DNA from: Desulfobulbus propionicus
Lineage (GTDB): Bacteria > Desulfobacterota > Desulfobulbia > Desulfobulbales > Desulfobulbaceae
Direction of reading: 5' to 3'
NCBI GenBank assembly: GCA_002747135.1
Contig: PDTE01000025.1
Coordinates: 1 to 64,000, forward strand
Length of the DNA: 64,000 bases
A program made the translations under genes and the position numbers. Of the stretch, positions 2,289-64,000 are shown piece by piece. Positions within the stretch are counted from its first letter, which is position 1. The number at the start of each line of letters is the position of its first letter. Below the pieces are notes generated by a model that searched no databases, was not told the origin of the DNA, and saw only the letters and a program-made list of their open reading frames with translations.

Positions 2289-2418
2289 GTCATCATAGCT
2301 TTCTAACGAGTACGGGCTGGACCAGACAGCCGCCAGCCACAGCAAAAAAAAGAACTCTGGAAATTTGGGACACGCTCTGCTGTCTCTGAATAGAGTTTCA
2401 CCTTATTTAGCAAAAGGC

Positions 2419-2570
2419 CTAACTCCTCACATCACCCCTCTATGAACGATCACGACCGCATAGAGGGGCTATAGCTGCCAATCGTGCTTGTCCAGATAGG
2501 GGCAGACTGAGAGCAGTTACACGTTTGAGGCAGGTACAATCAGAGCGTTACACACCCTGTGAGGAGGTAT
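2419..2570 (+). mobile_element. IS66-type MITE, R1 form, with 8-bp target duplication
   Basis: The ends are CTAACTCCTCAC and GTGAGGAGGTAT, imperfect inverted copies of each other. The element is flanked by the perfect direct repeat CAAAAGGC (2411-2418 and 2571-2578). The inside carries the shared core GAGGGGCTATAGCTGCC. Together with the hairpin at 2248 this accounts for most of the gap between 2116 and 2604. Confidence 0.85.
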
Positions 2571-2604
2571 CAAAAGGCTTTAAAATGGAGGAGGTTATAA
2601 ATAT

Positions 2605-3123
2605 ATGGACTTGAAAAAATCCAAAATAATGTCGGTATTTTTAGTGGCCGCTACAATAGGTATAGCAATATTGCTTGGTTTACTGAAAAATAAATACTAT
2701 GCCAATGAATATTCGACTGTTAACGCGCCGTTACCATCAGAACAGATAGAAGCACTAACATTGGACTTGAACAAACAGGGTATTTTCAAAAAAATCGGCC
2801 AGCCCCGAAAATTGTACTTAAGGGTCCGCAAGCTGCATAATACCAGCGATGAAGCAATGAGCTTGAGTTTTGATTTAATCGGCGACGAAAAGACGGCTGA
2901 AACAAGTATTAAAGTCGATTACAAACCTTTTGATATCGAAAAGGACACCTTTGATCTTGCTGCAGGAAAAAAGGCCAGTCTTAATCTTTATGTCAACCTT
3001 ACGAAAGAGGGGTATCAAAAAGGGCTCTGGAAAGGGCAGTTGCTTATTCGCGACGTCAAAAAGGACAATGAACTGATAGGACAGATCCCCATAGAAATAA
3101 CCAGGGAAGGGAGGCGCTCTTAA
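2605..3123 (+). CDS. Membrane-anchored protein with Ig-like exported domain, partner of the polyferredoxin
   Basis: 172 residues: one N-terminal membrane segment (about 9-26, IMSVFLVAATIGIAILLGLL), then an exported domain of alternating strands (LYLRVRKLHN, MSLSFDLIG, ASLNLYVNL, GQLLIRD, IPIEITR) typical of an Ig-like beta sandwich. GGAGGAGG ahead of the ATG sets the start. The stop overlaps the start of the next gene (TAATG), so the two are translationally coupled. FixG/CcoG polyferredoxins carry an Ig-like domain at their own C-terminus; here it may be a separate subunit. That is inference. No family name is recognised with confidence. Confidence 0.7.
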   Translation: MDLKKSKIMSVFLVAATIGIAILLGLLKNKYYANEYSTVNAPLPSEQIEALTLDLNKQGIFKKIGQPRKLYLRVRKLHNTSDEAMSLSFDLIGDEKTAETSIKVDYKPFDIEKDTFDLAAGKKASLNLYVNLTKEGYQKGLWKGQLLIRDVKKDNELIGQIPIEITREGRRS

Positions 3124-4028
3124 TGAAGAAAATAAACTATAAACAAAAAGCACATCGCTATTTCTGGCAAAGGATTCAATGGTATGCTTTTGGTTTCATT
3201 CTTTTTTATGCCCCTTTTATCTTGTTTGCCCGCGGCCTTGGAAAGATAGTGGGCGAAACCCCTAATGTCACCATCCATGACACCTGCCTTCGCATTCCAA
3301 TTCAAAACCTCCTCTCCGGGAAAGGGGTACAGCTTTTTTCAATCTGGGGGATCAGTTTAGTTCTTCTGGTTGTGTCAGCTTTACTGTTTGGCCCCTTTTT
3401 TTGCGGTAAACTATGCCCGGCAGGAGGTTTTTCAGAGCTGGTATCCCGTTATGTTCCCAAGCGTCTCAAGGTAGACTGGACAAGGTTCGTCAACCCGGCA
3501 CCTGTGCGTTATGGCTTCCTGGCAGGATTTGTTATCTCACCATTTGTAACAGGCAATCTGAACTGTTCATTCTGTGGCTTTTGGTTCCTCGAAAATTTGA
3601 TGAATGCCGGTTTCTGGGCTGAAATGGTATCGTTAAGTTCCTGTGCGATTTTAACTGGTCTTCTATGGCTGGTTATCTTCGGCATGTTTACCAAAGGAGG
3701 GAGAGGATATTGCAACTTCATGTGTCCTGTGGGTGCTTTCCAGAGCATCTTACATTTTTTTGGCCGTATGTTTAAGTGGACATTTAAATTAAAACTTGCG
3801 GAAGATAAATGTAATAATTGTGGAACGTGCGTAGAGGAGTGTCCGATGGGTGCACTGGAAAGAAACAGTGATGCGGGCCATGTGCAACATAATATTCATC
3901 ATTGCATAACCTGTTCTCAATGCGTTAACTCCTGCCCCCAGGGAGCGCTGTTTTATGGAACCGGTTATCATGGATTTTCTTGCCCCTCTTCTGAAACCTT
4001 GGCACCGTATACCAAGACACCGGCATAA
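3123..4028 (+). CDS. NapH/CcoG-like membrane polyferredoxin
   Basis: 301 residues. Four to five membrane segments (about 20-37, 70-93, 128-146, 168-190) carry the CxxxCP motifs of the NapH/NosR/MauN group at C94-C98 and C197-C201. A C-terminal cytoplasmic part has two classical 4Fe-4S clusters: C230, C233, C236, C240 and C261, C264, C267, C271. Such proteins pass electrons between a quinol or soluble donor and periplasmic or metal-handling partners. It is coupled to the upstream gene by a TAATG overlap, and a small Cys-containing membrane protein follows 33 bases later. No nap, nos or cco catalytic gene is near, so the acceptor is unknown. The metal/B12 surroundings suggest a reductive step in metal or corrinoid uptake; this is inference. 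Confidence 0.85.
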   Translation: MKKINYKQKAHRYFWQRIQWYAFGFILFYAPFILFARGLGKIVGETPNVTIHDTCLRIPIQNLLSGKGVQLFSIWGISLVLLVVSALLFGPFFCGKLCPAGGFSELVSRYVPKRLKVDWTRFVNPAPVRYGFLAGFVISPFVTGNLNCSFCGFWFLENLMNAGFWAEMVSLSSCAILTGLLWLVIFGMFTKGGRGYCNFMCPVGAFQSILHFFGRMFKWTFKLKLAEDKCNNCGTCVEECPMGALERNSDAGHVQHNIHHCITCSQCVNSCPQGALFYGTGYHGFSCPSSETLAPYTKTPA

Positions 4029-4325: not shown

Positions 4326-4334
4326 TCTTGCATC

Positions 4335-4457
4335 GTAACTCCTCACCCCTCTTTGCACGATCACGACCCGGCGCATAGAGGGGCTATAGCTGCCAATCAT
4401 GCTTGTCCAAATAGGGGCAACCTGAGAGCAGTTACACACCCAGCGAGTAGTAGTTAC
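4335..4457 (+). mobile_element. IS66-type MITE, R1 form, with perfect 8-bp target duplication
   Basis: The element begins GTAACTCCTCACCCC and ends GTAGTAGTTAC. It is bracketed by CTTGCATC at 4327-4334 and again at 4458-4465. This is one of the clearest copies: exact GTAAC/GTTAC termini and an intact duplication. Confidence 0.9.
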
Positions 4458-4471
4458 CTTGCATCAACGTG

Positions 4472-6088: not shown

Positions 6089-6091
6089 GAG

Positions 6092-6546: not shown

Positions 6547-6654
6547 GTAACTGCTTTCAGGCTGCCCGGATTCGGGTAAGCGCGATTGGCAGCTATAGCC
6601 TCCCTGTGCGGTCGATAGCGATCACCTGGAGACAGGTGGCCTGGGAGCAGTTAC
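6547..6654 (-). mobile_element. IS66-type MITE, R1 form, near-perfect target duplication
   Basis: The termini are GTAACTGCTTTCAGGCTG and GGGAGCAGTTAC. Flanks are CTGGTAAG (6539-6546) and CTGGTAAC (6655-6662), 7 of 8 identical. It sits between yjbQ and the lipoprotein gene. Confidence 0.85.
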
Positions 6655-8488: not shown

Positions 8489-8641
8489 GTAACTGCTCCC
8501 GGCTCGCCCTTCTTCTGGCGATCGCGATTGGCTGCATAGGGGCTGTAGCTGCCAATCGTGCTTGTCCAAATATGGGCAGCCTGAGAGCAGGTACACGTTT
8601 GAGGCATGTACAACCAGAGAGTTACACACCCAGTAAGTAGT
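8489..8641 (+). mobile_element. GTAAC-family element, R1 form
   Basis: Starts GTAACTGCTCCCGGCTCGCCC, contains GGGGCTGTAGCTGCCAATCG and ends near ACCCAGTAAGTAGTTTC, an eroded GTTAC end. No target duplication is visible. It fills the gap between rmuC and moaA and ends at the moaA stop codon. Confidence 0.75.
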
Positions 8642-8642
8642 T

Positions 8643-13514: not shown

Positions 13515-13638
13515 GGTAATCGGCTGCATAGAGAGGCTATAGTTGTCCAGCGCGTTTACCCGAATCCGGGCAGCCTGAAAGCAGCTACAGGCGTAAAGCA
13601 AGTTAAACCAAGGTGGTACCTGCCCTATGAGTAGTTAC
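13515..13638 (+). mobile_element. GTAAC-family element, R1 form, left end lost
   Basis: Contains CGGCTGCATAGAGAGGCTATAG and AAAGCAGCTACAGGCG and ends in GAGTAGTTAC at 13638. The left terminus is missing, replaced by the abutting hairpin MITE. Confidence 0.65.
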
Positions 13639-13738
13639 AAATCTGAAGCATCTGTGACCAGTGACACATCAGAAACAGAGAATAACCGGAAGTACTACCC
13701 TCTGGTCGGTTATACAGGTGCTCGTAGTTACTTTATAT

Positions 13739-13896
13739 GTAACTCCTCACCGCTCACCCCTCTTTGAACGATCACGACCCGCCGCATAGAGGGGCTATAG
13801 CTGCCAATCGTGCTTGTCCAGACAGGGGCAGCCTGAGAGCAGTTACACCTTTGAGGCAGGTACAATCAGAGCGTTACACACCCAGTGAGTCGTTAC
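13739..13896 (+). mobile_element. IS66-type MITE, R1 form, full length
   Basis: GTAACTCCTCACCGC to CAGTGAGTCGTTAC. The direct repeat CTTTATAT occurs at 13731-13738 and 13896-13903, sharing one base with the terminus. Elements cover most of 13371-13929; between them (13639-13738) nothing is recognised. Confidence 0.85.
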
Positions 13897-13929
13897 TTTA
13901 TATTATAATAAGTGTACAATCGGTAACAA

Positions 13930-18504: not shown

Positions 18505-18555
18505 GTAACTGATCACGGGCACTGCGTCTTTGCCCGATCACCCTTTCCCGTGTTA
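18505..18555 (+). mobile_element. Partial GTAAC-family element, R3 form
   Basis: GTAACTGATCACGGGCACTG matches the left end of the R3 elements at 38728 and 54542. The right half is missing. It separates the Mo/W enzyme gene from the sugar transferase gene. Confidence 0.65.
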
Positions 18556-20018: not shown

Positions 20019-20176
20019 GTGATTGCGCACAGGGCATGCAGCACCTTGGTTTCATTTGCTTTACGTCTGTATCTGCTTTCAGCCCGCCGGGAACCGGGCA
20101 AGCGCGGTTGGCAGCTATACCCCCTCTATGCGGCTAATCGTGATCGCCCTGAGATGAATGAGGCGGGAGCGGTTAT
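20019..20176 (-). mobile_element. GTAAC-family element, R1 form, reversed
   Basis: Contains GCACAGGGCATGCAGCACC, TTGGCAGCTATACCCCCTC and ends near GGGAGCGGTTATC, an eroded GTTAC. It separates the sugar transferase gene from the ligase gene. Confidence 0.7.
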
Positions 20177-22913: not shown

Positions 22914-23009
22914 AACATATCTGCTGCCACTTTCTTGCCCAACACCCTGGTCATGCCAATTACACATCGGAAACAGGAAATAACAGGAAAACACAGATCC
23001 CGTGATTGG
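22914..23009 (+). mobile_element. Eroded GTAAC-family element, R3 form, between convergent gene blocks
   Basis: The right half is clear (ACAGATCCCGTGATTGGTTAC ends at 23009); the left half is weak. Flanks resemble each other (ATAAAACA and ATAAAAAT). A small GC hairpin CCGCC-TTTTC-GGGCGG at about 23039-23055 may stop transcription between the two blocks. Confidence 0.6.
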
Positions 23010-23072
23010 TTACATAAAAATGGTATGCTCCCGGATTACCGCCTTTTCGGGCGGACTGAAACCAGGCTTCAC

Positions 23073-24321: not shown

Positions 24322-24370
24322 GTAACCAATCACGGGGTCTGTACTTCTTTGTTATTCTCTGCTTCTGACT
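24322..24370 (-). mobile_element. Half GTAAC-family element, R3 form, providing the GT9 stop codon
   Basis: GTAACCAATCACGGGGTCTG plus TTCTTTGTTATTCTCTGCTT matches the left part of the R3 copies at 28986 and 58143. The last dozen codons and the stop of the GT9 gene lie inside it. Confidence 0.75.
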
Positions 24371-28985: not shown

Positions 28986-29142
28986 GTAACCAATCACGGG
29001 GGCTGTACTTCTGCCTTATTCTCTGCTTCTGACGTGTAACTGCTCACGGGTGCTTCAGCTGTGTGCAGGCCCTGTTTTTTGCTGTGCAAGACTGTGCGGA
29101 GAATTGTGATCGTGTAAGGATAAGGCGCCCGTGACTGGTTAC
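28986..29142 (-). mobile_element. GTAAC-family element, R3 form, overlapping the 3' end of the polymerase gene
   Basis: GTAACCAATCACGGGGGCTG at the left and GCGCCCGTGACTGGTTAC at the right. The last 32 codons and the stop of the Wzy-like gene lie inside it. No clean 8-bp duplication is visible. Confidence 0.82.
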
Positions 29143-35192: not shown

Positions 35193-35356
35193 GTTTGACT
35201 ATCTCTTCCTTGCCTGTTTGAAGACGTTGTGTATCAAAGATTACGGATATATCCTTTTATTACAATAACTTATATGTCAAAGCCTCACAACAGCGGAAGT
35301 TTTCGCATGGTAAAGCATGTAAAGAAGTTACAGATTTTGCACCTGTAAAGAGAAGT

Positions 35357-35508
35357 AAACCGATCACGGGGGGGTACCGTTGCGTTATTTTCTGTTTCTG
35401 AGGTATACCTGGTCACGGGTGCGTCCTTGCGCAGGCAGGGTTTCTCATTATCCACAACTATGGGGGAGATTGTGATCGGGCAAAGATAAAGTGTCTGTGA
35501 TCAGGTAC
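35357..35508 (-). mobile_element. IS66-type MITE, R3 form, with perfect 8-bp target duplication
   Basis: AAACCGATCACGG at the left and GTGATCAGGTAC at the right. AGAGAAGT flanks it at 35349-35356 and 35509-35516. It lies upstream of the Wzc-like gene, between that gene and the IS remnant. Confidence 0.82.
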
Positions 35509-35589
35509 AGAGAAGTGCTTATTGCCTTTTGTATCATCTCAACCTCTCAATATCTATACAAACAGTTATTTCTTGACACAGGACACGGG

Positions 35590-36566: not shown

Positions 36567-36723
36567 GTAACGACTCACAGGGCCTGTATCACCCTGGCTT
36601 CCCTTGCTTTACGCCTGTAACTGCTTTCAGCCTGCCCAGATTCGGGCAAGCACGATTGGCAGCTACAGCCCCTCTATGCGGCGGATCGTGATCGCTCAAG
36701 ATGGGTGACCTGAGAGCAGTTAC
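36567..36723 (-). mobile_element. GTAAC-family element, R1 form, full length
   Basis: GTAACGACTCACAGGGCCTG to CTGAGAGCAGTTAC. Flanks ATAAGACC and ATACAACC agree in 6 of 8 positions, perhaps a decayed duplication. With the truncated copy it explains most of the dsrC-ppiD gap; the promoter of ppiD must lie in the last 57 bases or inside the element. Confidence 0.8.
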
Positions 36724-38727: not shown

Positions 38728-38911
38728 GTACCTGATCACGGGCACTTTATCTTTGCACGAGCACCATTTCCCGCCTGCTTTTGCGCACGCAAGGCTCACT
38801 TCGCCTGCCTGCCTACTCGAAATCGTGCCTGCAAAACTCTGTTGCACCCCTGACCAGTTACACACCAGAACCAGAGAATAACGCAGAGGCACAGACCCCG
38901 TGATCGGTTAC
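38728..38911 (+). mobile_element. GTAAC-family element, R3 form, containing the start codon of the SNF2 gene
   Basis: GTACCTGATCACGGGCAC at the left and GACCCCGTGATCGGTTAC at the right; inside lies an inverted region around TTTCCCGC. Just upstream (38686-38720) is an R1-like end (TACTCACAGGGCAGG). The GTG start of the SNF2 helicase lies in its right terminus. Confidence 0.82.
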
Positions 38912-43889: not shown

Positions 43890-44046
43890 GTAACTGCTCC
43901 CAGCCCGCCCATCGTATGGTGCGATCACGACCCGCCGCAGAGAGGGGCTGCAGCTGCCACGCGCGCTTGCCCAAACCTGGCCAGGCTGAAAGCAGCTGCA
44001 GACGTAAGGCAAGTAACATAAAGAGGTTGCATACCCTGTGAGGAGT
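43890..44046 (+). mobile_element. GTAAC-family element, R1 form, upstream of larB
   Basis: GTAACTGCTCCCAGCCCGCC at the left, GAGGGGCTGCAGCTGCC inside, and CCCTGTGAGGAGTC at the right; the right terminus has lost GTTAC. It replaces the native larB upstream region from 20 bases before the start codon. Confidence 0.75.
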
Positions 44047-44157: not shown

Positions 44158-44315
44158 GTACCTACTCACTGGGTGTGTACCTCTCTGGTTTTACCTGCCT
44201 CAAACGTGTAATTGCTCTCAGGCTGCCCCTATCTGGACAAGCACGATTGGCAGCTATAGCCCCTCTATGCGGCGGGTCGTGATCGTTCAAAGAGGGGTGA
44301 GCTGTGAGGAGGTCG
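44158..44315 (-). mobile_element. GTAAC-family element, R1 form, reversed
   Basis: GTACCTACTCACTGGGTG at the left, GATTGGCAGCTATAGCC inside, GAGCTGTGAGGAGGTC at the right. Ends are mutated at one or two bases each. No duplication is visible. Confidence 0.75.
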
Positions 44316-45767: not shown

Positions 45768-45790
45768 AATTATCCAGCAGCTGAATTATT

Positions 45791-45973
45791 GCAACCGATC
45801 ACGGGGGCAATGCTTACCCGTTACTCCCTGTTTCTGACATGTAATTGATCACGACTGCTTCACATTTGGCCAAGCACCATTTCCCGCAGGTAAGCAAGCG
45901 AAGTGAGACTCCGTGTACAAGAGTATGCGGTAAATGGTGATCATGCCAGAATAAAGAGCCTGTGATCAGGTAC
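45791..45973 (+). mobile_element. IS66-type MITE, R3 form, inserted at the rpoD stop codon
   Basis: GCAACCGATCACGGGGGC to GTGATCAGGTAC, with GAATTATT on both sides (45783-45790 and 45974-45981). Internal inverted segments CCATTTCCCGC and GCGGTAAATGG form a stem. The duplicated target contains the rpoD stop codon. Confidence 0.9.
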
Positions 45974-45976
45974 GAA

Positions 45977-47593
45977 TTATTCGCTGACAAAGGCGTGAAG
46001 ATCGGAGCTTCTTGACGGGTGCCGCAATTTTTTTATGGCCTGGGCTTCAATCTGCCGGATCCGCTCCCTGGTCACGGAGAAACACTGCCCAACCTCTTCC
46101 AGGGTATGGTCACAGCCAATTTCAATACCATAACGCATCCTCAGCACCTTTTCCTCACGCGGTGTAAGTGACCCCATCACCTTGCATAAACAGCGTTTCA
46201 GGCTTTCTGTCATCGAATTTTCCTGAGGATCAGGGTGGGCATGATCCATGATAAAATCACTGAGCAATGCGTCTTCTTCATCACTGACTGGCGCATCAAG
46301 CGAAATGGCATCCTTGGCGGTTTTCAGGGCGATGTTTACTTTTTCAACATCAGTACCCAGCTGCTCCGCCATTTCCTCAACAGAGGGATCACGACTCTCA
46401 AATCTTTGGAAATCCTTAATAAAGCGGAGCATACGATTGATGGTTTCTATCATATGCACAGGCAGACGAATGGTACGTCCCTGATCAGCGATACCTCTGG
46501 TTATGGCCTGTCTGATCCACCAGGTGGCATAGGTCGAAAATTTATAGCCACGTTTATAATCGTACTTTTCTACAGCCTTCATCAGGCCAATGTTCCCTTC
46601 CTGGATGAGATCAGGAAGTTGTACCCCCCTGTTGAGAAACCTCTTTGACACTGAAATAACCAGACGCAGATTTGATCGCACCAGGGCCTCCTTGGCCTGC
46701 CTGACCATTTCTTTTCCTACCTCGATATCCTGCTGCACCGCTATAAACGCAGGCCAGCTCACCCCGATAGTCTCGGCAAGCTCAAGGGTTATCCTTCTTT
46801 CAATCTCTGCCTGATCTATCCCCTGTTCCTCCTGGCCGGCAACCATTTTCCTTCTTGCCGCGAGAATTTCCCGTTGCTGGGCAACCACACGTACCCTGTT
46901 AAATTTCTGGCTTAACTCCTTAACGGCATCCGCCACAGACATCAACCCTTTTGAGCACAGCCTGTTCTCTCGAAACAGGGCGGAGATATCACGCCCAGTC
47001 TTGATTATCTGCTTAACAATACCCTCTTCCTGCTCAGGCTTTCCTGAACATTCCTTTAACTCGGCAAAAAGGACCCTGCGCTTATCATCAAGGACATTGG
47101 CCTCCTCAATCCGGTCCAGCAGGGAGTCGCGAAGGATTTCCAGTTCTTTATTATCACGATCTGAAACGCCTCGTATTACCGTACTTATCCGAATGCTGCC
47201 CCGAAGAAGGTTTTCAGCAAGATCATTTAACGCGGTTACGCCAAGGGTTAACCTGAGCACGGCATGCTGTATTTTTGTTTCTCCCTCTTCAACCATTTTT
47301 GCCAGTTCAATTTCTTCTTCATGGCTGAGCAAACGCTGACTCCCCATTTCACGAAGATATATATTCATGGGGTCAGTTGAGGTTCCCTTTCCCCTGCGAT
47401 CATTACTCCGCCGGTCGACGCCGGAACGTCTGTCAGAACTTGTTCTTCTTTCGCTTCCAGTTTCAGTTTCAGTTTCGATATTTTCCGGTTCTTCGGACAT
47501 CAATTCATCCTCGGCGAGTTCATTCTCGTCCTGATGCGCATCATCGTGCCTTATAGCCAGTTCTTCTCTACACTCATACTCTACACGATCCAT
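45977..47593 (-). CDS. rpoD: RNA polymerase primary sigma factor RpoD
   Basis: 538 residues. An acidic N-terminal part (region 1.1 is short or absent) with a charged [22 protein letters not shown] stretch, region 1.2 ([26 protein letters not shown]), region 2 ([36 protein letters not shown]), region 3 and region 4 ([35 protein letters not shown]). The last 15 residues follow the usual LRHPSRS. It is the housekeeping sigma factor, encoded downstream of dnaG as in many bacteria, although an R1 element now lies between them. Confidence 0.97.
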
Positions 47594-47742
47594 CGTCTCT
47601 CTCCCAAAAGCAGCAAAACCAACTGAAACTGCGTGTACCGCTCAATGTGTTCCAAAGCGGCTCAGCTGCTATGCAGTATCCTTGTAAGCCTAACAGATTT
47701 ATTTATTTATTCAACGTGTTATATCACTTATTAACATTTTTC

Positions 47743-47850
47743 ATAACTCCTCACAGCTCACCCCTCTTTGAACGATCACGACCCGCCGCATAGAGGGGCT
47801 ATAGCACCAGGCCGCGCCTGCCCAACCCTGGGCACCCTGAAAGAAATTGC
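47743..47850 (+). mobile_element. GTAAC-family element, R1 form, between dnaG and rpoD
   Basis: ATAACTCCTCACAGCTCACC at the left and the shared core CATAGAGGGGCTATAGC inside; the right end is eroded near 47850. It fills the middle of the 311-base gap between rpoD and dnaG. The rpoD promoter probably lies at 47600-47740, an AT-rich stretch. Confidence 0.75.
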
Positions 47851-47904
47851 AAAAAAATCAAGTGAAAACAAATCAATAGATCCGTGCGAACAGTTACCAT
47901 TTTT

Positions 47905-49698
47905 TCAATATCCGGTTCTTTTTTTCTCTGCATCAAGTTTTTGCTGAAGCAGCTTCATGAGCAGGTCGGTGTCACCCTGCTTTTCAGCATCATGAATACG
48001 CTGCTGCAACAATGCTCCCTGTTGCCGCTCTCCTGCACCATGAAGCCATTGAAGGATCTCCTCCTTCTGTTTTTGCATCAAGTCATCATCGTCATCTCCT
48101 TCTTCAGCTTCATTGTGCAGGCTCATAAGTAACCTGGCCACATACTGGCGGTCTTCCTCTTTATCGAGCAATGACAAGAGCTGTTCAGGGGTATAGTTTC
48201 CTTCATGCTGCAGCTGCTGGAGCAAGACAATAATATTTTCCCCAAACGATGAATGAATAACCCTCTTCATGCCAGCAGCCAAAAATTCATCAATACTCTC
48301 TGGATACATAATAACAAAATCCAGCAGCTGGCGTTCTCTTTTTGCCATTTGCGGCACAGAAGACCTGGGCTGCAACTGCCCACTCGCCGGTTGCCTCCTG
48401 GTTACTTGGCCAAACTGATCCGGAGAGATTCCCAGCTTCTCGCAAAAATGGGCCGTCATCAACGTTTTCTGGGTTTGATCGCCAGCCTCATCGACCAGCG
48501 GCCTCAACTCTGCAAGTATCCTGTTTTTCCCATGCAGCGTCAATCCATACTCCTGCACCAGAGATTCAAAGACAAATTCTGGCAGGGGCCTTGCATTTTC
48601 TGTCTGACGAATTATAGCGGCTCCCCCCTGTTCTCGTACAAGGCTGTCAGGATCATGTCCCCTGGGCAAAAGAGCCACCCGGCAGTCAAGCCGTTCCGCC
48701 AGAAAAAAGGGAATACTGCGCATGGCCGCTTTCAGCCCTGCTGTATCAGCGTCAAAAAGAAGCACCACTTCACGGCAGTACCTGCGAAGCAATTTCACAT
48801 GCTGACGAGTGAGGGAGGTCCCCAGCGGGGCGACGGCATTGTCAATTCCATGAACCGCCAGTGATAACAGATCAAAATTACCTTCAACAACCAGTGCGGT
48901 TCGTTTTTTACGAATCGAGTGTTTATGCTGAAACAACCCAAAAAGCAGGCGGCTTTTATCAAAAACAGGGCTTTCCGGTGAGTTCATATACTTGGGCTTG
49001 CCTTCTCCCAAAATACGACCGCCAAAAGCGACGACCCTTCCGGTCAGGTCAAGGATCGGAAACATCACCCGTTCACGAAACCGGTCATAATATCCCCCGC
49101 GCTCTCTTTTTACAGCAAGTCCGGCTTTTTCAATAACCTCTGCTGTCTGAAAACGGCTTCTTAAATAATCGGTCAGGATACTCCAGCCAGCCTGTTCCGG
49201 TGCAGGAGCATAGCCCAGCTGATAATTACGGATACATTCTTCTGAAATTTTTCTCTGGTGCAGCAAATACGCCCTTGCTGATTTTGCCTGGGGATCAGTA
49301 AACAGGCGCCGTGAAAAAAACTCGGCTGCGGCCTGATTCACTGCGTACAATTGTTCTGTTTCCTGCATCCTCCTTTGTTCGGCAGGAGTCATATCCCGTT
49401 GCGGCAGCTGGATATGATACTTATCGGCAAGGGTTTTCAGTGCTTCAGGAAATTCCATATGATGATATTTCATCACAAAGGAAAAGACATCACCCGAAGC
49501 GCCGCAGCCAAAGCAATAAAAAAACTGGCGGTCAGGAGTAACCGAAAAAGAGGGAGTTTTTTCACCATGAAAAGGGCAAAGACCAACCAGCCTGCTGCCT
49601 GCTTTTTTCAACATCACATATTCGCCAATAACTTCGACAATATCTGCGGCCTGACGGACAGTTTCTTTTACCGCTTCCCTGGCTGTCTTACTGGTCAT
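47905..49698 (-). CDS. dnaG: DNA primase DnaG
   Basis: 597 residues. CHC2 zinc finger with C41, H44, C62 and C65, then the catalytic core and Toprim domain (VVEGNFDLLSLAVHGIDNAVAPLGTS; LLFDADTAGLKA), and a C-terminal helicase-binding region of helices (about 430-590). It makes RNA primers for replication. The order dnaG-rpoD is the classical macromolecular-synthesis arrangement. A Ca2+/Na+ antiporter gene is divergent from it, 197 bases away. Confidence 0.97.
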   Translation of the reverse strand: MTSKTAREAVKETVRQAADIVEVIGEYVMLKKAGSRLVGLCPFHGEKTPSFSVTPDRQFFYCFGCGASGDVFSFVMKYHHMEFPEALKTLADKYHIQLPQRDMTPAEQRRMQETEQLYAVNQAAAEFFSRRLFTDPQAKSARAYLLHQRKISEECIRNYQLGYAPAPEQAGWSILTDYLRSRFQTAEVIEKAGLAVKRERGGYYDRFRERVMFPILDLTGRVVAFGGRILGEGKPKYMNSPESPVFDKSRLLFGLFQHKHSIRKKRTALVVEGNFDLLSLAVHGIDNAVAPLGTSLTRQHVKLLRRYCREVVLLFDADTAGLKAAMRSIPFFLAERLDCRVALLPRGHDPDSLVREQGGAAIIRQTENARPLPEFVFESLVQEYGLTLHGKNRILAELRPLVDEAGDQTQKTLMTAHFCEKLGISPDQFGQVTRRQPASGQLQPRSSVPQMAKRERQLLDFVIMYPESIDEFLAAGMKRVIHSSFGENIIVLLQQLQHEGNYTPEQLLSLLDKEEDRQYVARLLMSLHNEAEEGDDDDDLMQKQKEEILQWLHGAGERQQGALLQQRIHDAEKQGDTDLLMKLLQQKLDAEKKRTGY

Positions 49699-54181: not shown

Positions 54182-54534
54182 TGGAATTTAAAGTGATCAT
54201 TGCCTCGGTTAAACAGGAGTACACGGATCAGGTTGTCGATGCCGCCAAAAACGCAGGAGCAACCGGAGCGACCATCATCCATGCCAGGGGAACCGGCATA
54301 AGAGAGGCAAAAACGTTTTTTGGCCTTTCCCTGGAAGCCCAGACTGACATCATCCTGTTCTTAACTGAGAGGCACTGCGTTGCCCCCATTCTTGAAGCGA
54401 TCAACACGGCTGGAGAATTCCACAAACCCGGCACCGGCATAGCCTTTGTTCTGCCGGTAGAGCAGGTGATCGGGCTGGAAACCCAGCTGAAAAAGTTACA
54501 GGAAAGTATTGATCAGGGTGAACAACAAGGGTAG
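54178..54534 (+). CDS. PII-like (GlnB-related) regulatory protein of the DUF1538 antiporter
   Basis: 118 residues with the PII ferredoxin-like fold: KVIIASVKQEYTDQVVDAAKNAGATGATIIHARG, the T-loop region (about 37-55, GIREAKTFFGLSL), then ILFLTERHCVAPILEAI and GTGIAFVLPVEQVIGL. The GATGATIIHARG stretch matches the PII-NG/PII-like group that is linked to transporters. No conserved T-loop Tyr is seen. Such proteins bind nucleotides and gate transporters. It is the last gene of the coupled set, which makes it a likely regulator of the antiporter pair. Confidence 0.85.
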   Translation: MMEFKVIIASVKQEYTDQVVDAAKNAGATGATIIHARGTGIREAKTFFGLSLEAQTDIILFLTERHCVAPILEAINTAGEFHKPGTGIAFVLPVEQVIGLETQLKKLQESIDQGEQQG

Positions 54535-54541
54535 TTATCAC

Positions 54542-54727
54542 CTAACTGATCACGGGCACTTCATCCTTGCACGATCACTCTTTCCCGTATACTCCTGGAC
54601 ACAACAGTCTCACTTCGCCTGCTTGCCTGCCCAAAAGAGTGCCTGCCCAATTCTGTCGCACCCGTGACCCCAGTTACACATCAGAACCAGAGAGCAACAC
54701 AGAAGTACAGCCTCTGTGACTGGTTAC
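54542..54727 (+). mobile_element. IS66-type MITE, R3 form, truncating the MscS-type gene
   Basis: CTAACTGATCACGGGCAC to CCTCTGTGACTGGTTAC, with GTTATCAC on both sides (54534-54541 and 54728-54735). It lies in the 3' end of the mechanosensitive-channel gene and just after the PII-like stop codon. Confidence 0.92.
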
Positions 54728-57037
54728 GTTATCACGATTCCTGACAGTCACCTCCCGCTGGGGAAAGGGGATATCAACAGCATGCTCGCGAAACAGCCGC
54801 TCAATCTCAAAATTGATCTCACTGCGTGCGCTTGTACTGCTGTTTATGTCCCTTAAATAACAGTAGAGCGAAAAATTCAATGAACTGTCGCCAAACTCAA
54901 GAAAGAAGACCCGGGGCCGAAACCGCGACGAATTATTGATCACACGAGGGTTGGCACGAGCGATCTCCAGCAGCAGCTTTTCTACCAGCCGGGGATCGGT
55001 ACCATAGGCAACGCCAATGGGAATCTTCAACCGACCCAGGGTATTGTCACGAGTGATATTGGTTACCTTAGCAGATATAAGCTCGGAGTTGGGCACAATC
55101 ACATCCTCCTTGTCAAAGGTCTGAATCACCGTGGAACGAATACTTATCTGTTTGACATACCCCTGCTCATCGCCTACCCTCACCCAGTCTCCCAGACGAA
55201 CAGGCTGCTCAAACATCAAGATCAGGCCGGAGATAAAATTATTAACCACATTCTGCAAACCAAAACCTATACCCACAGAAAACGCGCCCAGAACAATGCT
55301 CAAACCGGTTAATTTCAACCCGGCAACACTCAGGGCGACAAGGATCAAGAGGGCATAGCCAAGATAACTGGCAAGGGTCAGTACCGTCTCCCTTGAATTA
55401 CGGGAAATCTCGGAATCATGCAGCCAAAACTGCTGAGCGAGCCGCCGCAGATAGCTCATTATGGCAAAACCTGCCAGCAGCAAGACCACAGCCATAATCA
55501 ACCGGGCAGGATAAAAAGAAAAACCGCCAAGCTGAGTACCCCGGGTAAAGACCTGAAAGAAAATGCCTGGCTGCGTCACTGCTCCCCACACCGCAATCAG
55601 CAGGCAGAAAAACACAAAATAAAGCAGTAATTTCAGGGTAAAGTTTAAGAGACGGAGAGCCTTGTCCGGCGGTGCAGCTGCCTCCTCATCTTCCTCTCGG
55701 GCAAGACGACCAAAGACAGCACCGCTCACTTTCGCCACGACACACATAACCAGATCAATCAGATCACTGAAAAAAAGAAGCAGTGCCAAGACAATCACCG
55801 TCTTACTTATCCCTGTCAGGAGATACTCCGTCAGATTATGGTAACCCGCCGCCTCAACAACAAAAAGGACAAGAGAGACAAGCAACACGGCACGTACAAG
55901 CAGACTGCCGACAGGAGAGGTCAAATATTCCCGCCGCAGAACATACGTCACTCGCCATACAGCAAAAAGGGTAAAGGCCAAAAAGAGCAGGCGAGAAAGA
56001 TAAAAAATATCCTGCTGTAAAAAACAAAAGAGCAGTTTATCGAAATGGAGCAGGAGCATGGCGCAGAGCAGATAGAAAAGGGCGCGAAAAAAACGTGCCT
56101 TGTTCTTTTCGTCAATCCTGTCAACGGAAATTTTCGAATAAGCCAGACGATAATAAACCGCCTGGAAGGCAAAGGGTGCCGCCAGCAAATAAAAAAGAGA
56201 AAACGCTCCCCAGCATAACAGCAGAGAGACAAGATCGTTTTGTAAATACAACCAGCTTCCCACAGCAAAAGAAGCGGCAAGAGCAAGTAAAAAATTTGGC
56301 CCAATACCCCGCCCCAGCAAAAAAAGATCAAAATAACAGAGCAGATTCCCCTTTTCTCCATAGCGTTCGACAAGACGGCAGACCACCTTGCGAAATACCA
56401 CGAGAAACAGCATAAACATTGCTGGCAGCAGCAGAAAATAGTCTGGTGCGACCTTGGCAAAATCATCTTTTTTCAGCCCGTCTTTCCACTGCTCTTGCAG
56501 AAAAAAACGCCTGCCTTTTTCCACATCCTCGTCCAAAAGGTTTGCCGCCATACGCCGGACAAGGGTTATGCCGTCATCACCACGATAGATCAGTTTATGC
56601 GCCACTCTTCTTTTGCGGGCATTATCAAGCAAGGCCAGTTTCTCCTTGCAGATAAGTGCCAGCAGGGTATAAGCGGCAAGATCAGCCTCCTTTTTCTCCT
56701 TACTACGCTGAATTTCCGGGTTCGATATACTTTGCGCAGAACTGTTCCCGCTCTCCACCTCACTCTGCCGATGGGTGGCAAGATCAAGCCGACTAATCCC
56801 CTCCTCCAGTTCGACAATCCGTTCCCTGACCTCACTGGCAATCCGTTCAACCTCCTGACGCATGGCAGCGAGATCATCCAGGGAGGTGCTGGGAGTTAAA
56901 CGGGAGAGAACAGCTTCTACTTCCGCACTTTTTTTATCAACATCAATAACAGCGATGCTTCCCTTTCCCATCACGGGAAAAGAAAAACACAAGACCATAA
57001 AGAGAGAAAAGCTGAGCAGACGGCAATAATAGTTCAT
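54674..57037 (-). CDS. Large MscS-type mechanosensitive channel (MscK-like), 3' end altered by MITE
   Basis: 787 residues from the ATG at 57037; the frame is open to 57313 but lacks a signal there, whereas this start gives a clean signal peptide (about 1-24). A periplasmic coiled-coil region (30-170) is followed by about ten membrane spans, and the C-terminal MscS domain: GLSIVLGAFSVGIGFGLQNVVNNFISGLILMFEQPVRLGDWV and IVPNSELISAKVTN. It releases solutes on hypo-osmotic shock. The last residues (VTSHRGCTSVLLSGSDV) are read from an R3 element. Before the insertion the protein would have ended with about six other residues, overlapping the PII-like gene's end. Confidence 0.93.
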   Translation of the reverse strand: MNYYCRLLSFSLFMVLCFSFPVMGKGSIAVIDVDKKSAEVEAVLSRLTPSTSLDDLAAMRQEVERIASEVRERIVELEEGISRLDLATHRQSEVESGNSSAQSISNPEIQRSKEKKEADLAAYTLLALICKEKLALLDNARKRRVAHKLIYRGDDGITLVRRMAANLLDEDVEKGRRFFLQEQWKDGLKKDDFAKVAPDYFLLLPAMFMLFLVVFRKVVCRLVERYGEKGNLLCYFDLFLLGRGIGPNFLLALAASFAVGSWLYLQNDLVSLLLCWGAFSLFYLLAAPFAFQAVYYRLAYSKISVDRIDEKNKARFFRALFYLLCAMLLLHFDKLLFCFLQQDIFYLSRLLFLAFTLFAVWRVTYVLRREYLTSPVGSLLVRAVLLVSLVLFVVEAAGYHNLTEYLLTGISKTVIVLALLLFFSDLIDLVMCVVAKVSGAVFGRLAREEDEEAAAPPDKALRLLNFTLKLLLYFVFFCLLIAVWGAVTQPGIFFQVFTRGTQLGGFSFYPARLIMAVVLLLAGFAIMSYLRRLAQQFWLHDSEISRNSRETVLTLASYLGYALLILVALSVAGLKLTGLSIVLGAFSVGIGFGLQNVVNNFISGLILMFEQPVRLGDWVRVGDEQGYVKQISIRSTVIQTFDKEDVIVPNSELISAKVTNITRDNTLGRLKIPIGVAYGTDPRLVEKLLLEIARANPRVINNSSRFRPRVFFLEFGDSSLNFSLYCYLRDINSSTSARSEINFEIERLFREHAVDIPFPQREVTVRNRDNVTSHRGCTSVLLSGSDV

Positions 57038-57247
57038 AGAAAAAAATAATAAACAGGGTAGATGATAGCCTCCCGGCGGAAGTGATACACGTTCCCGGCC
57101 AAGCTGAAGGGCTTTTTCATGGATTGTCGGCAGCTGGCAAACCGTAACTGTCTCCAGGTCACGACTCTTCGGGCAGGCAGAAAACAGGTACAAGCAGAGA
57201 ATCGAATTTTCGAGTATACCACCCGGTACTGTGTCAGCAATATATTT

Positions 57248-57341
57248 GTAACCAGTCACGGAGTATGTGCTGTACGTGTTGCTCCCTGTTTCTGACGTGT
57301 AACGGTGCTTCATCTTTGCCCGAGCACCCGTGACCAGTTAC
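57248..57341 (+). mobile_element. IS66-type MITE, short R3 form, with perfect 8-bp target duplication
   Basis: GTAACCAGTCACGGAGTATG to CACCCGTGACCAGTTAC. ATATATTT stands at 57240-57247 and 57342-57349. With 94 bp it is a short internally deleted version. The rest of the gap 57038-57531 shows no recognisable gene. Confidence 0.9.
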
Positions 57342-57531
57342 ATATATTTCGAGGGTGAAGTCTTTCACCAACCGGGGATATGCCATTGAGTTGAGAGCGG
57401 CTTCTTTGTTTTTCCCCGCAACTATGCTGTTCTTGCCGAGTAATTGTTCCCAGGGTATCTCTCTTCGGGTGCGCTTAAAGCAGGTACCTTGCCGGCAAAA
57501 TGAGGTATTACAGGAATCAGGAGCCCCTGCC

Positions 57532-58142: not shown

Positions 58143-58193
58143 GTAACCAATCACAGGGTCTGTACTTCTACGTTATTCTCTGCTTCTGACGCG
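58143..58193 (+). mobile_element. Partial GTAAC-family element, R3 form
   Basis: GTAACCAATCACAGGGTCTG and TTATTCTCTGCTTCTGACG match the left third of R3 elements. It lies right behind the nuclease pseudogene. Confidence 0.65.
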
Positions 58194-58242
58194 CAGCTGG
58201 CCACAGTGAATGTACCCTGCTTATTTGACCCGATTTTTCCTT

Positions 58243-58325
58243 GTAACCGCTTTCAGGTTGCCCAGATCCGGGTAAACGCGATTGGCAGCTACAGCCCCTC
58301 TATGCCGCCAATCGTGCTCGATTAC
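58243..58325 (-). mobile_element. Partial GTAAC-family element, R1 form
   Basis: GTAACCGCTTTCAGGTTGCC, then ATTGGCAGCTACAGCCCC, and an end CGATTAC. One side is shortened. It fills the gap before the HPF-cold-shock gene. Confidence 0.65.
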
Positions 58326-58898: not shown

Positions 58899-58928
58899 AC
58901 GCTCCTCCGAAGGTTATTAAGTTGACAG

Positions 58929-59037
58929 GTAACTGCTCTCAGGTCACCCATCTTCTGGCGATCGCGACCCGCCGCATAGAGGGGCTATAGCTGCCAATCG
59001 CGCTTGCCCGAATCTGGATAACCTGGTGAGTAGTTAC
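58929..59037 (+). mobile_element. IS66-type MITE, R1 form, with perfect 8-bp target duplication
   Basis: GTAACTGCTCTCAGGTCACC to CTGGTGAGTAGTTAC. GTTGACAG stands at 58921-58928 and 59038-59045. Exact termini and duplication make it probably a recent insertion. Confidence 0.93.
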
Positions 59038-59271
59038 GTTGACAGTGTTATAACTGACGGCCCTTGACCGGACATGATCATGGCATCCGTCCATCAATTT
59101 TTTCACGTATCAGCCCCGTCATCAAATAAAGTACAGCTATGCATAAAAAGTTGTAAGAAAAAAAGAGGAAGGATGGTAAAGAATACAACATGACCATACA
59201 GTAATTATACTCATTTGAACGGGGGTAAATCAAGTATGTCCAGGACAATTTATCTTGGAGAGCCTGGGCTC

Positions 59272-59343
59272 GTAACTGATCACGGGCTCTTCATCTTTGC
59301 AGGATCACACTAACAGGAAAACACAGACCCCGTGACTGGTTAC
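59272..59343 (+). mobile_element. Minimal GTAAC-family element, R3 form
   Basis: GTAACTGATCACGGGCTCTT to GACCCCGTGACTGGTTAC, 72 bp in all, both termini exact. It is the shortest complete copy. No target duplication is visible. Confidence 0.82.
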
Positions 59344-61739: not shown

Positions 61740-61923
61740 GTAACCAATTTCGGGGTCTGTGTTTCCCCGTTATCCTCTGTTTTCGACGTATAACTGGTCA
61801 CAGGTGCAACAGAACTGGACAGGCACCATTTCCCGCAGGTAAGCAGGCGAAGTGAGGCGTTCGTGAACAAGAGTATGCGGGCCATGGTGATCGTACAAAG
61901 ATGAAATGCCTGTGATCAATTAC
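61740..61923 (-). mobile_element. GTAAC-family element, R3 form, between mrdA and rodA
   Basis: GTAACCAATTTCGGGGTCTG to GCCTGTGATCAATTAC. The inner stem CCATTTCCCGC is like the copy at 45791. No duplication is visible. It separates two genes that are normally overlapping or nearly so in an operon. Confidence 0.82.
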
Positions 61924-61931
61924 ATACTATC

Positions 61932-63965
61932 CTATGGAAGTTGTGATGACTGATGACGGGGCACGCCACCAGAGATATCCTGTCTCATCAGCTGTGATGT
62001 TCCAGGGGCACTGTCGTCCAGGACAACGGTCGCCACCTTACCCCTTTTAGCCTTGGAAGCAAAATATTGTTCAAGAACGGCTCCGGCGACAGGGGCGGCT
62101 GCGCTGCCGCCATGCAGACCATGTTCAACGACAACGGCAACAACAATCTCGGGATTAACTGCCGGGGCAAAACAAACAAACAAGGCGTGATCACGAAATT
62201 TATAGGGTATATCCTCTTCCTTCAGGTGTTTATACTGCTTTACTCTGACCACCTGGGCGGTACCGGTCTTGCCGCCTACAACAATTGATTTATCAGACAC
62301 CCTTGCCCTTCTCCCTGTTCCCCGTCTGCCATTCACGGCCTCCACCATACCGTCACGTACCAGTTTAAGATTACGTGACTGACCGGTAAGACGATGCAGA
62401 ATGTGTGGCTTGAAAGACTCCAGCACCCTGCCGTCAGGATCTTTGACCTCTTCAATCAGGGTTGGCTTATACAGGGTACCGCCATTTGCAATGGCAGCTG
62501 TCATTAAAGCCAGCTGCACAGGGGTGGCCAAATTAAACCCCTGACCAATGGCAACAGAGAGCGTCTCTCCTTCCTGCCATTTTTGGCCATGATGCCTTTT
62601 TTTCCAGTCTGCCGTAGGTATCAGGCCTGGTTTTTCGTGCTCCATTTCAATGCCGGTACGCTGCCCGAGCCCAAAAAGCCTGGCATATTTTGCCAATCGA
62701 TCCACTCCCAGCCGTTGACCAACCTGATAGAAATACACATCACAGGACTCTGAAAGGGCGCGCTGCAAATTTACCGCCCCATGTCCCCCTCTCTTCCAGC
62801 ACCTGTAGGTTCTGTTGCCGACCCGGTAGTATCCCGGACAGTAGAACACTGTTTCAGGAGAAACAACACGCTCTGCCAACCCCGCCAAGGCCGTGACAGG
62901 TTTATAGGTGGAACCGGGAGGGTACTGTCCCTGCACCAGTTTGTTCAGGAGAGGATTGTGCGGATTATCCAGCATGGCCTTCCAGGCTTTAATGGAAATA
63001 CCACCGACAAAATCATCCAGATGCAGTGCTGGCGAGCTGGCAAGGACAAGCAACCGTCCGGAATTAGGATCCAATGCCACCACCGCCCCTGCCCTGTCCT
63101 CCTTTTCCATAATATCTTCGGCCGCCTTTTGCAGCTCCATATCAACAGTCAGATACAGATCGTTACCAGGTAACGGTTCGAGTCCCTTAAGGTTTCTCTG
63201 TTCAAAGCCAAGGGAGTTGACCTCCATGGAGTGCAGGCCTTTTTCACCGCGAAGGTCCTTTTCCCTGAGTCGCTCAAGCCCCATTTTACCGATCATATCT
63301 CCGCGCCGGTATATATCGGCTTTATCTGCATCGAGCTCCTTTTGACTTACCTCTCCCAGATATCCAATCATGTGGGAGGCAAGATTTCCCCAGTGGTAGA
63401 CTCTGAGCGGGGCGACTTCAATCTTTATACCGGGCAGCTCCATACGATTGTTCTCAACCCGTGCAACGGTCTCCCAGTCCACATCTGCAGCCAGGCGTAT
63501 CGGGATATGCCCCTGGGTATGCGCCATTTTTCGTATTTTTTCCAGAAGCTCGGAAATATCTATCTTCAAGATACGGGTCACTCTTTTCAACCAGTCATCA
63601 TCAACCTTGTTATCCTCGCGTACCCAGACCACATTAAAAGACGGACGATTGGTCACTATTTCCCTGCCAAACCTGTCGTAAATATTCCCGCGCGGCGCAG
63701 TGACCTTCAGAGAACGAACCCGATTGGTATCAGCCAGCTTTTTATAACACTCACCCTTGTGTATCTGCAGATACCACAAACGACTGACAATGACCGCAAA
63801 AAAGAAAATCAGCACAAAAGAGGCATGCAAGGCTCTTTTCTTGTAGCCGTCTAATTCATAATCATCATGAGGGGTCAGTTTGGTTACCCCGTTTTCTCTG
63901 CTTCTCTCGGAATCAGGGAAAGATTCAGGTCGTCTTCTGTTTTTTTTACGCCGTACGTTTTTCAT
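61932..63965 (-). CDS. mrdA: Penicillin-binding protein 2 (MrdA), elongation transpeptidase
   Basis: 677 residues from the ATG at 63965; a frame start seven codons earlier lies in a repeat. One membrane anchor (about 45-63), PBP dimer domain with TAPRGNIYDRFGREIVTNRPSFNV, and the transpeptidase domain with active-site S352 and K355 (GSTYK), SCD (the SxN motif variant) and KTGTAQ. It makes cross-links in the side wall together with RodA. A basic cytoplasmic N-terminus (RRKKNRRRP) is typical. A GTAAC-family terminus begins six bases upstream of the start codon. Confidence 0.96.
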   Translation of the reverse strand: MKNVRRKKNRRRPESFPDSERSRENGVTKLTPHDDYELDGYKKRALHASFVLIFFFAVIVSRLWYLQIHKGECYKKLADTNRVRSLKVTAPRGNIYDRFGREIVTNRPSFNVVWVREDNKVDDDWLKRVTRILKIDISELLEKIRKMAHTQGHIPIRLAADVDWETVARVENNRMELPGIKIEVAPLRVYHWGNLASHMIGYLGEVSQKELDADKADIYRRGDMIGKMGLERLREKDLRGEKGLHSMEVNSLGFEQRNLKGLEPLPGNDLYLTVDMELQKAAEDIMEKEDRAGAVVALDPNSGRLLVLASSPALHLDDFVGGISIKAWKAMLDNPHNPLLNKLVQGQYPPGSTYKPVTALAGLAERVVSPETVFYCPGYYRVGNRTYRCWKRGGHGAVNLQRALSESCDVYFYQVGQRLGVDRLAKYARLFGLGQRTGIEMEHEKPGLIPTADWKKRHHGQKWQEGETLSVAIGQGFNLATPVQLALMTAAIANGGTLYKPTLIEEVKDPDGRVLESFKPHILHRLTGQSRNLKLVRDGMVEAVNGRRGTGRRARVSDKSIVVGGKTGTAQVVRVKQYKHLKEEDIPYKFRDHALFVCFAPAVNPEIVVAVVVEHGLHGGSAAAPVAGAVLEQYFASKAKRGKVATVVLDDSAPGTSQLMRQDISGGVPRHQSSQLP

Positions 63966-63970
63966 AAACT

Positions 63971-64000
63971 GTAACTCACAGGGCATGTATCACCCTGGTT
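63971..64000 (-). mobile_element. Edge of a GTAAC-family element upstream of mrdA
   Basis: GTAACTCACAGGGCATGTATC and ACCCTGGTT match the end of the element at 36567. The remainder lies beyond the window. Confidence 0.65.

Follow-up and report, generated by a model that had tools for sequence, protein, structure and literature searches.

A hairpin-bearing family of miniature inverted-repeat elements in Desulfobulbus propionicus and its probable link to ISBst12-group IS66 transposases

We analysed a 64,000-nucleotide stretch, referred to here as the window, of contig PDTE01000025.1 from the Desulfobulbus propionicus assembly GCA_002747135.1 (G000:C50:1-64000), and found that the short repeats dispersed along it, designated R1 and R3, are mobile elements, which is supported by their large copy number, their 8-bp target duplications, and the detection of an empty target. 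Being short, gene-free, bounded by inverted ends, and present in many dispersed copies, they are miniature inverted-repeat transposable elements (MITEs). Sequence comparison suggests that these MITEs, many of which lie between 8-bp target duplications, were probably moved in trans by a single-gene transposase of the ISBst12 group of IS66 insertion sequences (ISs), whose 12-bp ends R1 shares. Of the ~158 bp of an element, 108 bp are a conserved, covarying hairpin. The window's own genome (G000) comprises 1,302,452 bp in 67 contigs and is 68.8% complete; our scans of it covered ten contigs, or 686,701 bp (53% of 1,302,452 bp), except where the whole genome is named.

Target duplications and empty targets

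A sequence-only reading of the window had described more than twenty elements with GTAAC...GTTAC ends, eight of them with perfect 8-bp flanking repeats. Both descriptions held, in that 27 distinct places, fragments included, were located in the window (14 R1 and 13 R3), and all eight 8-mers were found where they had been reported, each followed downstream by an exact second copy. At six of the eight sites (2411, 4327, 45783, 54534, 57240, and 58921), no base of the repeat belongs to the element, and at site 13731 the repeat CTTTATAT includes the terminal C of GTTAC, so that 7 bp lie outside the element. Exact GTAAC/GTTAC ends are present at three of the eight sites and ends with at most one mismatch each at five; at site 2411, the element ends are mutated (CTAAC, ATACC). 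Dinucleotide shuffles of the window yielded no such element, either in 20 shuffles with exact ends or in 5 more with one mismatch allowed.

The same reading had suggested tabulating 8-bp duplications genome-wide. A blind scan of the ten contigs for GTAAC...GTTAC pairs 60-300 bp long showed them to be in excess: exact 8-bp repeats flank 34 of 417 pairs. Among the same pairs, exact repeats of 7 bp were found in 1, of 4 bp in 6, and of 9-12 bp in none, and exact 8-bp repeats at eight wrong offsets (1, 2, 3, 5, 7, 10, 15, and 20 bp) numbered zero at each. Allowing one mismatch per end resulted in 58 duplication-delimited elements of 94-242 bp. These comprise 36 R1 elements, 24 of which are exactly 158 bp long; 8 R3 elements of 183-197 bp, which hold a small inserted hairpin; and 14 others, namely 7 R3-like elements without the inserted hairpin (156-162 bp) and a remainder that are shorter, longer, or, in one case, outside the MITE family.

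Profiles for R1 and R3 were built from duplication-delimited elements and used to search the same contigs, with overlapping matches on both strands merged. This identified 335 distinct places, one per 2.05 kb and amounting to 6.1% of bases. The flanks of the 151 full-length matches are identical at 8/8 positions in 47 cases (33 of 101 R1 and 14 of 50 R3 matches) and at 7/8 or better in 67, compared to a chance level of 0.25% for 7/8 or better (56 of 22,650, all non-self flank pairs). The duplicated target sequences are A+T rich (34.6% G+C), and the median identity among 158-bp R1 copies is 91%.

To look for empty targets, the flanks of 81 sites were joined with one copy of the repeat removed, and only matches crossing the junction were considered. 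The clearest case is the site of the element at C50:144180-144337 (TTTATCTG), which is inserted in a member of another repeat family, sequence of that family being present to its left and right. Once joined, the flanks give gap-free alignments, at 85-91% identity over 142-147 bp, to six uninterrupted copies, including C40:35952-36098 (91%, 147 bp) and window positions 25608-25751 (89.6%, 144 bp), and more weakly to others. The joined flanks of the element at C40:10121-10278 likewise match C50:102957-103131, where no element is present, at 85.8% over 176 bp with one gap. The remaining crossing matches were to the element itself, to other copies of the family, or started ~15-30 bp before the junction, and were not counted. 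An R3 site at C3:1184 was considered as a second empty target and rejected, as it abuts an R1 copy and aligns for only 25 bp past the junction. The comparison of empty sites suggested by the sequence-only reading was thus realised in part: uninterrupted target copies exist within the own genome, but these are not orthologous sites in related strains.

Duplications of at least 7/8 also flank elements retrieved from other genera by means of their interior (described below), at 26 of 47 testable elements in a first set and 19 of 34 in a second, the two sets overlapping in genomes; element lengths are mostly 156-159 bp. Controls at six offsets reached 7/8 in 0, 0, 0, 4, 2, and 0 of 47 and in 0, 1, 3, 1, 0, and 0 of 34, and the non-zero values may derive from a second TTAC ~20 bp inside the true end. 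That the repeats are instead static and immobile, whether REP-like or RNA genes, would agree with their being intergenic, hairpin-forming, and numerous in the genome, but is scarcely credible given the 34 exact duplications against none at wrong offsets, the uninterrupted target copy, and the duplications in other genera.

Relation to IS66 elements of the ISBst12 group

Attribution of the elements to IS66, which the sequence-only reading had based on their termini and 8-bp duplications, is upheld by relatives, where IS66 transposases (PF03050; NF033517 for the closest partner) reside within GTAA-ended, 8-bp-duplicated elements. Of 37 genomes searched for PF03050 as relatives, a number that includes the own genome, 22 had a match. 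An IS66-family element with matching ends, as the sequence-only reading had proposed to seek, was found intact in two members of the same bacterial family and as a relic in the own genome, the commonest R1 outer end being identical to its ends over 12 bp. In agreement with that reading, which reported no autonomous IS66 in the window, no IS66 transposase was found there.

Two kinds of IS66 element were distinguished in relatives. At loci L153, L154, L156, L173, and L174, elements of 2.2-2.45 kb have GTAAG-type ends (in L173, one end is GTAAC rather than GTAAG) and exact 8-bp duplications, and L177 has a GTAA-type end, GTAACTGTTCAG, also with an exact 8-bp duplication. The other kind is represented by L178 in genome G015, a 1,698-bp element in which a single 504-codon open frame lies between two ends GTAACTACTCAC. 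Its transposase (L178/P0001) scores 243.9 bits against NF033517 (cut-off 180) and exceeds the cut-off for PF03050 as well; its duplication is unreadable because the right end coincides with a contig end. With this transposase as query, matches at E <= 1e-20 were obtained in 16 of 115 genomes, own included. In the complete genome G071, 13 of 28 candidate copies were scored, and all 13 contain a 507-codon open frame, 78-79% identical; the three copies that were read are 1,692 bp long, share these 12-bp ends, and lie between exact duplications, namely CAAAAAAC, CCTTTGGA, and ACGTTTTG. With at least 13 nearly equal open-frame copies in G071 (L182, L197, and L206 among its loci), this 1.69-kb ISBst12-type IS is likely an active element. 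More distant single-ORF (open reading frame) relatives have ends GTAACTACTCAG, GTAACTATTCAG, or GTAACTATCCAG. The same-genus genomes G002, G003, G004, and G005 contain broken TnpC pieces, and the only match to the tnpC query in the own genome is a relic on C44 consisting of three TnpC pieces followed by a right end GTAACTACTCACCCC.

The element ends follow the consensus GTAA[C/G]NNNTCA[C/G], and their comparison with the two kinds of IS supports a narrower form of the IS66 link, in which R1 fits the single-ORF ISBst12 group and not the GTAAG-ended IS66 of three-gene size. Exact identity to GTAACTACTCAC was seen in 23 of 72 R1 ends, and at most one mismatch to it in 56 of 72; GTAACTACTCAC is also the commonest R1 outer end (19/36). 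Out of 12 positions, R1 ends differ on average by 1.1 from the ISBst12-type lineage, by 4.9-6.8 from GTAAG elements delimited by duplications, and by 4.1 from L157, which is of GTAAG type with no duplication delimiting it. MITE and IS ends also coincide within single genomes. In G003, GTAACTACTCAC forms the ends of one MITE (7/8 flanks) as well as of the IS relic, and in G091 an IS with ends GTAACTATCCAG and an exact duplication accompanies a MITE with ends GTAACTATCCAG/GTAACTGTCCAG and an 8/8 duplication, although the two G091 loci seem to be a single copy divided between contig ends. MITEs with GTAACTATCCAG also occur in G025, which lies outside the 16 genomes that gave a match to such a TnpC. 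The TCA at positions 9-11 was considered as a feature peculiar to the ISBst12 type and rejected, as L156 and L157 show TCA too.

Several observations weigh against mobilisation by ISBst12-group transposases. The own genome, in an assembly that is only 68.8% complete, yielded no intact transposase of any IS66 type: a PF03050 search of all of it returned no match, and no autonomous element of 300 bp-12 kb with MITE ends and an exact duplication was present in the 687 kb scanned. Flank identity is below 6/8 for 71 of the 151 full-length copies. The R3 ends fit less well than those of R1, with a mean of 2.69 mismatches of 12 and an exact match in 1 of 42 (R3 and other ends were taken from 21 of 22 non-R1 elements, C48:62231 having been excluded as by eye not of the MITE family). 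In same-genus and other genomes, MITE ends deviate from those of the resident IS: by 3 or 4 positions in G065 (flanks of at least 7/8), by 2 to 6 in G004 (flanks of at least 7/8, with one MITE of 6/8 flanks at 1 and 2), and by 3 and 6 in G002. G071, which is rich in the IS, and G015 have matches to the hairpin model (4 places and 1, respectively) but no delimited MITE, and across genera the hairpin is found in 39 of 51 compared to 8 of 45 for TnpC (E <= 1e-20). In 26 duplication-delimited elements from other genera, the hairpin-side end lies at a distance of 3.0 from the GTAAG type and 3.7 from the ISBst12 type, the outer end of the same elements being 2.8 from the ISBst12 type and 4.0 from the GTAAG type. 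Finally, derivation of the MITE interior from an IS by deletion was rejected: the interior shares no more than chance-length short words with the IS, so the elements are not plain deletion derivatives. No larger element beginning with the hairpin was found, either in the ten contigs of the own genome or among the 48 stretches from genome_contigs records described below.

It could be argued from part of these data that the larger GTAAG-ended IS66 elements (2.2-2.45 kb, three-gene size) move the MITEs instead. Elements of this kind, known here from their ends and size, do have exact 8-bp duplications in relatives, and the hairpin-side end in other genera is usually GTAAG, the distance of 3.0 cited above being to the best of them (L156 or the undelimited L157). 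However, this would leave the much closer fit of R1 ends to the ISBst12-type lineage, the nearer ISBst12-type outer ends in other genera, and the pairing of MITE and ISBst12-type ends within G003 and G091 without a counterpart, and we regard it as improbable; as a source for R1 in particular, GTAAG-type IS66 was rejected for its poor end match.

Under mobilisation by the ISBst12 group, TnpC would bind both ends of an element and insert it through an 8-bp staggered cut. An autonomous IS with matching GTAA ends and an IS66 transposase encoded by a single ORF does exist in relatives, and in the own genome the place of an intact autonomous partner is taken by the relic on C44 only. MITEs can outlive their autonomous partner, so that a partner in the same genome is not required. 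Since the source IS would have decayed in the own genome, spreading has likely stopped there, unless an intact copy lies in the missing third of the assembly.

The shared hairpin and what it may do

R1 and R3 had been described as two internal types with the termini in common. This distinction did not survive closer comparison: both types read alike along their length and a single covariance model finds both, so they constitute one family with a common hairpin. In the window, the model matches R1 elements at 58928-59037, 36617-36724, and others, and R3 elements at 61790-61924, 54541-54677, 45841-45974, and others. The common plan consists of an end, a 108-bp imperfect hairpin, and a ~50-bp module that closes with the outer end, for a total of typically 158 bp. 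The foot of the hairpin is the element end, and its far arm holds an internal inverted copy of that end. The own genome also has shortened copies of 108-109 bp, one of which, C48:27890-27997, terminates exactly at the internal end copy and has its own exact repeat, GATTTACG.

In the R3 copies of about 184 bp (e.g., window 45791-45973 and 54542-54727), a hairpin of ~22-28 nt (GGTAAGC...GAGACT) is inserted in the apex. All nine matches to this pattern in the own contigs lie within such elements; in other genera, a similar small hairpin occurs twice in one element (L067, G023) and seemingly alone in another case (L066, G010). The inserted hairpin may be a mobile unit of its own.

A 21-base pattern from the apex was found in 48 stretches of genome_contigs records, all of them labelled Desulfobulbaceae, Desulfobulbus, Desulfocapsa, 'Deltaproteobacteria', or BMS3Bbin14, in a search that possibly did not cover the window's own or very near records. 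Of the 46 cores extracted, 38 were aligned (alignment A1); the other 8 were excluded because they contained an inserted small hairpin or because an arm was missing or shifted out of register, and 3 further cores at edges lie outside A1. Both sides had changed in 24 of 41 pairs of the A1 fold. Compensatory cells numbered 187, whereas shuffles gave 64.7 ± 7.5 and slid controls 17-38, and 90.4% of cells were paired compared to 31-38% when slid. Kinship between rows inflates the contrast with shuffles, so more weight rests on the slid control and on the occurrence across genera; the apex pairs are uninformative in A1, having been held constant by the choice of pattern. A second set, consisting of one element from each of 34 genomes, was retrieved with the model rather than the apex pattern; 22 of the 34 have CGCATAG...CTATAGCG exactly, while the loop letters vary. 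Counts from alignment A2 are biased towards the fold, since A2 was fitted to the model.

The covariance model was built from genome_contigs records, none of them known to be the own genome, and strict filters were applied in both distribution searches. Of 145 genomes searched as relatives, counting the own genome, 83 matched at E <= 1e-5, and these represent 39 of 51 genera. In a phylum-wide sample, 6 of 297 genomes matched, all six from the window's order and the own genome among them. No Rfam family fits the element: the window gave only a cobalamin riboswitch, window element 13739-13896 gave no match, and the L212 element gave mir-1451 at 31.5 bits against a gathering score of 85. Viral contigs yielded no match to a 19-base core.

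We propose, tentatively and at somewhat less than even confidence, that this is an order-wide MITE of ~158 bp whose 108-nt fold is under selection, with a near-constant apex, a foot that is the transposase end, and an inner arm that is a usable second end; that it has passed through dozens of genera with its 12-bp ends retuned to local IS66 transposases; and that the hairpin is a working part of minimal-element IS66 transposition (or else a mobile RNA part). Retention of the hairpin would be due to its fold, which most probably forms in single-stranded DNA while the element transposes. Such a role is suggested by the identity of the hairpin foot with the transposase end and by the 108-bp copy that stops exactly at the internal copy of that end.

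The next best reading of the fold is a role in transcribed RNA, in which the hairpin, transcribed together with adjacent genes, affects the processing, stability, or attenuation of their transcripts and owes its persistence to selection acting on the host or on tolerated insertion. Placement in the own genome is consistent with this, as between co-directional ORFs the element has one and the same orientation in 97 of 140 places (R1 66:30; R3 13:31, the R3 profile being reversed; ORFs of at least 100 codons, simply called), but elements in other genera lack such a bias (7 same, 11 opposite). The mismatches point both ways. They are asymmetric between strands, with 76 A-C and 49 G-T, 29 of the latter from one fixed pair, and 59 compared to 46 in the second set, 30 from the same fixed pair, which speaks for an RNA role; however, the excess of A-C over G-T is on the usual sense strand, so that it would be the other strand that folds. 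Given also that no Rfam family fits, we consider this reading rather unlikely.

A somewhat lower chance still is given to a hairpin without function, in which template switching at quasi-palindromes recopies one arm onto the other. Template switching of this kind also changes both sides of a pair, and the arms of the hairpin are indeed long near-palindromes. Such correction would, however, erase interruptions, yet unpaired columns and a bulged A are kept across genera, and one pair remains G-T in 29 of 36 sequences. The recurrence of CGCATAG...CTATAGCG in a set that was not chosen by its apex, with loop letters that vary, likewise argues against template switching alone.

Copies in the window, neighbouring repeats, and known elements

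On the plus strand of the window, R1 elements with duplications are located at 2411..2578 (element 2419-2570, 152 bp; exact 8-bp flanking repeat CAAAAGGC; profile 149.4 bits, covariance model 42.3 bits), 4327..4465 (4335-4457, 123 bp, internally shortened; exact GTAAC/GTTAC ends, repeat CTTGCATC), 13731..13903 (13739-13896, 158 bp; the CTTTATAT repeat noted above; profile 176.5 bits), and 47735..47905 (47743-47897; flanks CATTTTTC/CATTTTTT, 7/8). Two short forms complete this group: one of 108 bp, the hairpin module only, at 6547..6654 on the minus strand (flanks CTGGTAAG/CTGGTAAC with a 7/8 match; covariance model 53.6 bits), and one of 109 bp at 58921..59045 on the plus strand (element 58929-59037), with exact ends, the repeat GTTGACAG, and the best covariance-model match of the window at 70.4 bits. 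No duplication was detected for the R1 elements at 8489..8642 (plus strand, near full length; profile 146.0 bits, covariance model 61.1 bits), 20024..20175 (minus; profile 96.3 bits), 36567..36723 (minus, 157 bp; profile 142.5 bits, covariance model 65.4 bits), 43890..44046 (plus; profile 105.8 bits), and 44158..44312 (minus; profile 173.0 bits).

Duplication-flanked R3 elements are located at 35349..35516 (35357-35508, minus strand; repeat AGAGAAGT, left end without GT), 45783..45981 (45791-45973, 183 bp, minus, with the inserted small hairpin; repeat GAATTATT), and 54534..54735 (54542-54727, 186 bp, plus; repeat GTTATCAC). An internally deleted R3-type element of 94 bp, strand not assigned, lies at 57240..57349 (57248-57341; repeat ATATATTT). 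Three more have no detected duplication: 28986..29141 (minus, without the inserted small hairpin; profile 115.5 bits, covariance model 31.4 bits), 38728..38911 (plus, 184 bp; 124.1 and 31.5 bits, respectively), and 61740..61923 (minus, 184 bp; 134.9 and 47.0 bits).

The remaining places are fragments. Those of R1 are at 674..766 (plus; profile 48.1 bits), 13519..13638 (plus; 87.8 bits), and 58202..58324 (minus; 80.0 bits). An R3 fragment at 13637..13712 (43.4 bits) and R3 end fragments at 18505..18553 (38.9 bits), 22955..23013 (37.8 bits), 24322..24369 (31.9 bits), 58143..58206 (42.2 bits), and 59272..59310 (26.8 bits) have no strand assigned. The cobalamin riboswitch (RF00174, 78.9 bits) is at 981-1183, downstream of the R1 fragment at 674-766.

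Two other dispersed repeats share the window. One, of ~165 bp with long inverted ends (GTGTCCTGTCAACGCTG...), occurs at 44400-44566, 59435-59601, 13365-13514, 35620-35762, and 5979-6091, and 49 alignment pieces similar to it were obtained across the ten contigs. The other, of ~228 bp, is at 25524-25752 with ends like AGCCCGGATTTCTCAT/AACCCGGATTTCTCAT and has 38 alignment pieces in the own contigs; a member elsewhere holds an inserted R1 copy. MITE copies were also seen at or within ~20 bp of the ends of contigs C43, C17, C48, C39, and C50, and since elements lie at several contig ends, the family likely fragments the assembly.

These findings matter in three respects. For annotation, ~6% of the 687 kb examined is a single MITE family. 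For the mechanism of IS66, whose transposition is termed insufficiently characterised in one recent paper (PMC12898284), a 158-bp natural substrate in hundreds of copies, together with an intact same-ended IS in a related complete genome, would make recognition of ISBst12-type ends directly testable. Finally, base pairing holds the interior of the MITE, and not just its ends, across many genera, which raises the question of what the fold does.

The closest known system is the ISBst12 group itself. According to PMC12898284, ISDge4 is a transposing member with ends GTGACTACTCAGCA/GTAACTGCTCAGCA and an 8-bp repeat, which gives the signature of the group a published reference, and the group has in common with the MITE imperfect ends GTAACTNCTCA and an 8-bp target duplication. 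ISs of this group are ~1.7 kb long and include a transposase, whereas the MITE is ~158 bp with no transposase gene and an unrelated interior. Among the literature matches listed, with subscription papers and ISfinder outside the scope, there was no IS66-derived MITE and no MITE in Desulfobulbaceae.

MITEPsy1/2 (PMC3189936) and the Cardinium MITE (PMC9769881) are also short and gene-free, with IS-like ends and several to many copies. The assignments given for MITEPsy1/2 are to IS5 (queried) and to ends resembling those of a Tn3-family IS, and the Cardinium MITE is derived from IS982. In comparison with these, the present MITE differs in its link to IS66 and in an interior that is one covarying fold across many genera.

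ERIC and RU-1 (127 bp; PMC2759123) of enterobacteria are likewise MITE-like, intergenic, palindromic, of fixed length, and present in several genera. The present MITE is unlike ERIC in its 8-bp duplications, ISBst12-type ends, and different host group. ERIC has TA-type duplications and is not known to have an IS66 link. Repetitive extragenic palindromic (REP) sequences, for their part, are linked to RAYT/Y1 transposases and are not known to have 8-bp duplications of the MITE kind. REPs and REPINs (PMC3116915, PMC3733652) too are palindromic, extragenic, and of high copy number, with REPs measuring 20-40 bp.

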